From Micromonospora echinofusca (GTDB lineage: Bacteria; Actinomycetota; Actinomycetes; Mycobacteriales; Micromonosporaceae), in NCBI RefSeq assembly GCF_900091445.1, contig NZ_LT607733.1, forward strand, positions 1,257,501 to 1,321,500: a stretch of 64,000 bases of DNA. Direction: 5' to 3'. Shown here piece after piece: positions 17,704 through 18,143 of this stretch. Under the pieces are notes generated by a model that was not told where the DNA came from, did not search any database, and saw nothing but the letters and a program-made list of their open reading frames with translations. The position numbers were made by a program, and so were the translations under genes. Position 1 is the first letter of the stretch. Each line of letters opens with the position of its first letter.

Positions 17704-18140
17704 GTGCGCGACGGACGAGTCGACCGGGCGGTCGCGTCGGCGGGCCCCGGCCCGCCGCCGAGGAACGTCCGGACTCCACAGGGCAGGGTGGTTGCTAACG
17801 GCAACCCGGGGCGACCCGCGGGACAGTGCCACAGAAAACAGACCGCCGACCCCATCGGGGACGGTAAGGGTGAAACGGTGGGGTAAGAGCCCACCAGCAC
17901 CCCGGGTGACCGGGGTGGCTCGGTAAACCCCACCCGGAGCAAGGCCAAGAAAGGGCCGTCGACCAGCAGGACGACGGTCCGCGCAGACGCTTGAGGGTGG
18001 CCCGCCCGATGTCTGCGGGTAGGCCGCTCGAGCCTGCCGGCAACGGCAGGCCTAGATGGATGGCCGCCGCCGGCGCGAGCCCCTCGGGGCGCGTGCCGGT
18101 CACAGAATCCGGCGTACAGGTCGACTCGTCCGTCGCCCAC
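17704..18140 (+). ncRNA. rnpB: RNase P RNA, bacterial type A
   Basis: The conserved cores of the RNase P ribozyme, which cleaves tRNA 5' leaders, are present in order: GAGGAACGTCCGGACTCC near 17760, ACAGAAAACAGACCGCC near 17831, GGTAAGGGTGAAACGG near 17864, AGATGGATGGCCGCC near 18054 and ACAGAATCCGG near 18102. The 5' strand GCGACGGACGAGTCGACC (from 17708) pairs fully with GGTCGACTCGTCCGTCGC at 18119-18136, closing the terminal helix. Its last 35 or so bases form the left copy of a 38-bp repeat found again at 27563 and 34050, so the gene is the integration site of the elements that follow. The gene remains intact because the element supplies the 3' end. Confidence 0.95.
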
Positions 18141-18143
18141 CAG
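18106..18143 (+). repeat. att copy A (attL), inside the 3' end of rnpB
   Basis: A 38-bp sequence beginning AATCCGGCGTACAGG and ending GTCGCCCACCAG. It is identical to 27563-27600 and has two substitutions relative to 34050-34087. It covers the 3' strand of the terminal helix of RNase P RNA, so integration restores the gene. Flanking sequence diverges abruptly on both sides, as expected for a site-specific recombination core. Confidence 0.9.

Follow-up and report, generated by a model that had tools for sequence, protein, structure and literature searches.

The 3' end of rnpB as the very likely attachment site of an AICE family in Micromonosporaceae

The window analyzed here is a 64-kb stretch of DNA, positions 1257501-1321500 of the 7.0-Mb, single-contig genome of a member of the genus Micromonospora. 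It contains rnpB, recognized as the gene for a class A RNase P RNA by a covariance-model match to RF00010 (271.9 bits, E 1.2e-87) that spans the full model (1-367 of 367) with helix P1 closed. The 3' end of this gene is the first of three direct copies of one sequence, and the DNA that follows carries the genes of one complete-looking and one defective element. The features are as follows.

17703-17725, plus strand: 5' strand of the extended helix P1, pairing with 18119-18141
17716-18132, plus strand: rnpB, class A RNase P RNA (RF00010)
18106-18143, plus strand: att core 1 (attL), 38-bp direct repeat with the P1 3' strand (18119-18141) inside it
18140-18173, plus strand: terminator-like hairpin after att core 1 (fold, covariation over relatives)
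18225-18263, plus strand: four GACGCCCTG repeats, putative arm-type integrase sites, P' arm
18976-19719, minus strand: 2H phosphoesterase (2'-5' RNA ligase superfamily) gene (PF13563, E 3e-16)
19635-20420, minus strand: GntR/UTRA regulator (PF00392, PF07702)
21601-23031, plus strand: FtsK/SpoIIIE-type transfer protein, TraB-like (PF01580, E 7.5e-10; NF041214 weak)
23028-23744, plus strand: membrane/spread-like protein, SpdB-like by position, without family match
23741-24391, plus strand: GGDEF-domain protein (PF00990, E 6e-24; TIGR00254)
24388-26103, plus strand, start approximate: RepSA replication initiator (PF20199, E 9.2e-104)
26103-26288, plus strand: Xis-like HTH_17 protein (PF12728)
26291-27493, plus strand: tyrosine integrase of element 1 (PF00589, PF14659; alignment A1)
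27492-27511, plus strand: two GACGCCCTG repeats, putative arm-type sites, P arm
27563-27600, plus strand: att core 2, separating elements 1 and 2 (38/38 identity)
27597-27630, plus strand: hairpin after att core 2 (from the sequence)
27601-34087, including att core 3: element 2, defective, with a truncated regulator and integrase
32257-32808, plus strand: second integrase, C-terminal part (PF00589; 82% identical to the element 1 integrase over residues 251-430)
34050-34087, plus strand: att core 3 (36/38 identity)
34084-34116, plus strand: hairpin after att core 3 (from the sequence)
34088-38296: further island DNA, partly the left end of a third, decayed element (comparison with relatives)

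With 38/38 and 36/38 positions conserved in copies 2 and 3, the preliminary description of three copies of the rnpB-end sequence around AICE genes is confirmed. A chance repeat was rejected, since the next best match to the 38-mer on the plus strand of the window is 24/38; on the minus strand it is 27/38, and this match, at 17701, is the opposite P1 strand of rnpB itself. As boundaries of AICE genes, copies 1 and 2 enclose a complete-looking AICE, whereas copies 2 and 3 hold a deletion derivative only. No tRNA gene was found within the 64-kb window. A tRNA gene as attB is a usual, non-defining trait of AICEs; the att site of element 1 lies instead in rnpB.

Element 1 (18144-27600, between att cores 1 and 2) encodes, in order, the 2H phosphoesterase, the GntR/UTRA regulator, two unnamed proteins, the FtsK/TraB-like protein, the membrane protein, the GGDEF protein, RepSA, the Xis-like HTH_17 protein and the tyrosine integrase. 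The integrase matches PF00589 (E 1.3e-19), the replication initiator PF20199 (RepSA, 348 bits, cut-off 34) and the FtsK/SpoIIIE-type transfer protein PF01580 (39 bits, cut-off 24); matches to NCBIfam models are weak, with 23 bits for the RepSA equivalog (cut-off 700) and 28.5 bits for NF041214 TraB (cut-off 800). Element 1 thus combines Int, Rep and Tra, the set that defines an AICE in the sections of PMC3218068 available to us, with att direct repeats identical at 38/38 positions at both ends, and judging from its sequence it looks complete. The protein encoded at 23028-23744 has no match in Pfam or NCBIfam; counterparts ~50% identical to its N-terminal part occur in 10 loci that belong to other elements. 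No excised form was found in plasmid or viral collections, which is weak evidence; the closest integrase is ~49% identical in plasmids and ~34% in phages, as the best among the matches listed.

Two further observations concern this element. The GGDEF protein (23741-24391), encoded between the membrane-protein gene and repSA, has an intact GGDEF motif, and among the 13 element loci compared a relative was seen at the threshold used in L102 only (70%); it is a possible cyclic-di-GMP cargo. Near the left end, 18624-18701 forms an almost perfect inverted repeat whose 37-nt arms are separated by 4 nt.

Element 2 does not bring Int, Rep and Tra together, no rep or tra having been found among the proteins scanned, and is classed as a remnant. 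Besides the two fragments it contains other genes. Its regulator-like fragment lies on the strand opposite to the integrase part; the assignment of 31611-32129 to this fragment is our own reading of a segment with no Pfam match. The two fragments abut head to head near 32253, and a single deletion from the regulator into int would explain this junction. Int stumps also stand beside att copies in relatives, e.g. L086, L094, L095, L101 and L103. Beyond att core 3, the flank becomes collinear with relatives in long stretches only from ~38297, so that, in correction of the original observation, the DNA between 34.1 and 38.3 kb is likewise variable island DNA. L087 and L182 carry part of it (34233-34790) immediately downstream of rnpB, and L085 carries it after an att copy.

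The two strands of the extended P1, 17703-17725 and 18119-18141, pair at 22 of 23 positions. The earlier claim that the element restores the terminal helix agrees with this pairing, and the 3' strand would be supplied by the element. Outside the genus the core varies with the host, reading GGCCGAC in L113 and L150 and GGCTGAC in L137; in all three the variant is common to rnpB and the distal copy, and the P1 5' strand is able to pair with it. Such host-matched cores would be predicted both by RNase P selection and by the homology needed in recombination, and the latter alone could explain them.

The hairpin that follows the core has a median folding energy of -25.7 kcal/mol (75 sequences) and reaches -18 kcal/mol or lower in 81%, versus 20% of 79 control stretches. 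Over all 73 distinct rows, which are related to one another, 84.7% of cells are paired and 73 cells are changed on both sides, giving a covariation score of 0.257; slid controls reached at most 42.9%, 32 cells and 0.062, and the shuffle means were 76.3%, 28.6 cells and 0.139. By two other counts the alignment did not exceed the shuffles: 267 of 500 shuffled versions had at least as many doubly changed pairs, and 84 of 500 at least as many pair types. In the genus, a hairpin of this kind follows most of the rnpB genes seen, whether or not a second core is present. Of the proposal that the element brings a new terminator hairpin, the strong, covarying, terminator-like structure is supported; the hairpin may be new or may replace a similar one.

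The short repeat GACGCCCTG occurs 10 times in the window, against 2.2 expected, and is present on both future attP arms. In relaxed form it is found 1.98 times per 250 bp after rnpB (80 loci; control 0.03) and 1.21 times before secondary cores (61; control 0.02). We read them as putative arm-type sites for the integrase, comparable to the repeats of pACPL and pSAM2 described in the part of PMC3364876 available to us.

An alignment of ten close integrases (A1, from which L011 was excluded for a stop within its frame) yielded 47 integrase loci in named genomes. In 29 of these, spread by record name over nine genera (Micromonospora, Salinispora, Jidongwangia, Pseudosporangium, Asanoa, Winogradskya, Actinoplanes, Catellatospora and Actinocatenispora), an att-core match of 23-30 of 30 positions lies no more than 3.3 kb downstream of int. 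The remaining 18 have a best downstream match anywhere of 14-21 of 30: in L126 the locus sequence stops 388 bp past int, an int piece directly follows a full rnpB in L146 and L161, another gene is the target in L124 and L125, and 13, all below 60% identity in the best segment, are without an assigned site. The rnpB tail also adjoins the integrase in 9 of 30 loci of another integrase set, window included. Approached from the other side, a non-random sample of 50 loci contains 28 secondary cores, and for 25 of them an int match on the same strand ends less than 3.3 kb before the core; a number of these matches are stumps of 17-96 residues, two of them of 17 and 25. No int match was found upstream of the other three (L091 at 19365, L175 and L196). 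The search for family integrases adjoining rnpB that the preliminary description had proposed was thus positive in all three samples, whose counts overlap, some of the 47 loci being from the same genomes as the other sets.

As targets of the relatives that lack the rnpB tail, tRNA and other known RNA genes found no support: no tRNA was found in 21 loci, and no Rfam match at gathering score in 14. A direct-repeat search around 17 loci, two of them of the rnpB type, gave no usable signal, probably because the far element ends are beyond the loci.

The 3' 80-mer of rnpB matches all 121 genomes of the genus set, which is wider than Micromonospora and includes G015 and G108, apparently of Salinispora; 64 have at least two matches and 18 at least three, and some of the extra matches are distant from rnpB. 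In the 99 of 121 genomes with rnpB and the downstream landmark on one contig, the two are 3.7-50.4 kb apart (median 14.1 kb), the median being 11.7 kb in 48 single-copy genomes versus 15.9 kb in 51 multi-copy genomes. Since an arm-like region also follows rnpB in many single-copy genomes, these distances indicate that not all of them are empty. The single empty attB sought in related genomes was recovered, as two element-free rnpB loci match the DNA past attR of occupied loci. The DNA past attR in Micromonospora sp. HNM0581 (L116) resembles that after rnpB in G118 (L194), with 81.4% identity over 479 bp starting 60 and 22 bp past a 27-bp core; the DNA past attR in G114 (L103) resembles that after rnpB in G004 (L084), with 86.5% over 639 bp, but starting 238 and 263 bp past the core. 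Both element-free genomes, G118 and G004, have one tail copy genome-wide. The remaining long matches in the flank comparison are between element left ends.

A change of target can be followed in one branch of the integrase tree, which comprises 40 rows (the window, G018 and 38 of the 47 loci), five with stops written as X and three with long branches. L124, L125 and G018 form a clade with 100/100 support nested among rnpB users. The G018 element occupies the 3' end of a gene for a GNAT protein (distantly Eis-like), between two 21-bp copies, a site revealed by the element-free G026, which has the same GNAT locus; L124 and L125 have the same right junction as G018. Of the 18 positions of rnpB CAGAATCCGGCGTACAGG, the GNAT site shares 15. 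The identity between the copies stops at ACAGG, which would place the crossover to the left of the P1 strand; at the GNAT site that strand would accordingly come from the element. In the attL of G018, the one element available with both ends, 7 of 23 positions of the P1 strand depart from the rnpB form, which suggests that the strand may decay once a lineage leaves rnpB. The hairpin is kept in the G018 element and so may serve more than rnpB. An integrase that recombines another site, named beforehand as an observation that would speak against the rnpB reading, is hence found in one nested clade, and the reading is otherwise supported.

Six copies of the rnpB tail lie distant from rnpB (L105-L110; L201-L206), two each in G077 and G068 and one each in G135 and G002. 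Their core is 100% identical or nearly so, and most have the hairpin and arm region. A search of 8 kb to either side, and of 20 kb on the side of the arm, found a close integrase for none of them; only L107/L203 has an integrase at all (27-32% identical). Two share ~700 bp and two ~130 bp with DNA found after rnpB elsewhere, and the other two have nothing in common with such DNA at the threshold used. L106 and L110 are a few kb from a gene that we take, from its sequence, to be ychF-like. These six copies go against the simple picture.

Based on the above data, we consider it very likely that rnpB is the chromosomal attB of an AICE family of Micromonosporaceae, whose tyrosine integrase would recombine attP with ~38 bp at the rnpB 3' end. 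The grounds for this proposal, all read from sequence, are the direct att repeats, the position of int beside the distal copy, the return of the arrangement in other genera, tandem copies, two pairs of occupied and empty sites, and repeats on both arms. Strand exchange would take place in AATCCGGCGTACAGG, to the left of the P1 3' strand. Once integrated, the element would then provide both the P1 strand and the hairpin with which rnpB ends, and the gene would remain functional. RNase P selection would then keep the element-borne strand matched to the host. Excision would be carried out by Int and Xis, and transfer by the FtsK-like protein. We count against this explanation that no excised form was found in the plasmid or viral collections, that 18 of 47 loci are without the tail and 13 of them without an assigned site, that three secondary cores are without an int match, and that six tail copies are distant from rnpB. 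Taken as a whole, the attachment of this integrase to rnpB is supported by the checks that could be run.

Other origins of the repeats were weighed against this explanation. The true attB might lie elsewhere in the island, the rnpB tail in attP being a captured terminator or promoter-proximal module; retention of the hairpin in the G018 element at its other target and in the orphan copies would suit such a module. We nevertheless regard it as very improbable, because elements in the window, as in relatives, have an att copy at either end, and because at its new target the G018 clade has its repeat in an unchanged register, to the left of the P1 strand. A segmental duplication of the rnpB end, with mobile genes there by chance, could account for those tail copies that are far from rnpB without a close integrase, but the copied stretch is short, sharp-ended and beside int in many genera, the arms recur on both sides and empty sites exist; its probability appears slighter still. 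That the distal copies, being complementary to the P1 5' strand, work as RNA, as a decoy or antisense regulating RNase P, is the least credible of these alternatives, since recombination already explains the place and the ends of the copies.

Recombination at rnpB places the family close to known systems. Like pSAM2-type AICEs and pACPL of Actinoplanes sp. SE50/110, element 1 has RepSA, an FtsK-like transfer protein, Xis and a tyrosine Int beside att, the 3' end of an RNA gene as attB and repeats on both attP arms. Unlike these, its attB is rnpB rather than a tRNA gene and its arm repeat, GACGCCCTG, is different (for pACPL, the sections of PMC3364876 at hand give an att of 43 nt in a tRNA-Pro gene and arm repeats of 21 nt); it also matches the NCBIfam RepSA and TraB models only weakly. 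The AICE integrase subfamilies of Ghinet 2011 (PMC3218068, in its accessible portions) are likewise tyrosine integrases of Int-Rep-Tra elements in Actinobacteria, with tandem arrays. There, tRNA 3' ends are the sites of the vast majority of AICEs, the pSLS subfamily excepted, and "RNase P" has 0 occurrences in the main text. Islands in structured RNA genes (cf. PMC12424338) also restore the 3' part of the gene; here, unlike in those islands, what is restored is a single strand of a ribozyme's closing helix. The site classes given in the excerpts of PMC12424338 available to us are tRNA/tmRNA, coding and intergenic, without one for other RNA genes, and rnpB elements may well count as intergenic there. 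In the available parts of PMC2516327, PMC4256840, PMC2705793, PMC3541175, PMC8776855 and PMC9569102, rnpB serves for phylogeny, as a promoter or as an entry in an RNA list. AICEs and attachment to structured RNA genes are thus known already; rnpB as a family-wide AICE site, or as an attachment site at all, was not found in the open-access literature, whose coverage is incomplete, so that this is weak evidence. An element that replaces one strand of the closing helix of RNase P RNA offers a natural test of co-evolution between mobile DNA and a ribozyme, and the rnpB clade with its GNAT-targeting daughter clade makes a change of integrase target readable. The site also suggests itself as a conserved integration site for vectors in Micromonospora and Actinoplanes genetics.

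Across the class, the rnpB-tail pattern matches in 43 of 394 genomes, and seven outside the genus match twice, one copy being a full rnpB (RF00010) and the other not. The second copy in G238 is apparently an rnpB cut by the contig start, leaving six clear fragments. A scan for integrase ORFs beyond the family covered 30 loci from the 43 matching genomes and 14 further loci. L239 and L250 have an integrase-like ORF on the opposite strand, 48 and 59 bp away from rnpB, respectively; in L218, L214/L238, L215 and L247 an ORF so oriented is 207-1041 bp from the gene, and in L212/L248, L223, L224/L242 and L244 one adjoins a tail fragment, again on the opposite strand. These ORFs are 30-37% identical to the window integrase over long matches. 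With flanks of up to 1.5 kb, 6 of the 30 pattern loci have such an ORF and 24 have none; the fragments L237, L240 and L249 are without one. We treat these ORFs in other families as a lead rather than a result. We would give even chances to a broader view, in which rnpB is an integration hotspot across class Actinomycetes for distantly related tyrosine-integrase lineages, elements swap part of an essential ribozyme, P1 compatibility limits host range and the strand decays on leaving rnpB.

Two arrangements seen in these genomes are recorded separately. In the incomplete assembly of G238 (L245/L246), one rnpB 3' end has two continuations, one of them beside an integrase piece, representing either occupied and empty states in one sample or a misassembly. 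In G273 (L237/L238), rnpB and a tail copy lie 610 kb apart on opposite strands with the core and the following hairpin region in common, an arrangement that an inversion after integration would fit.
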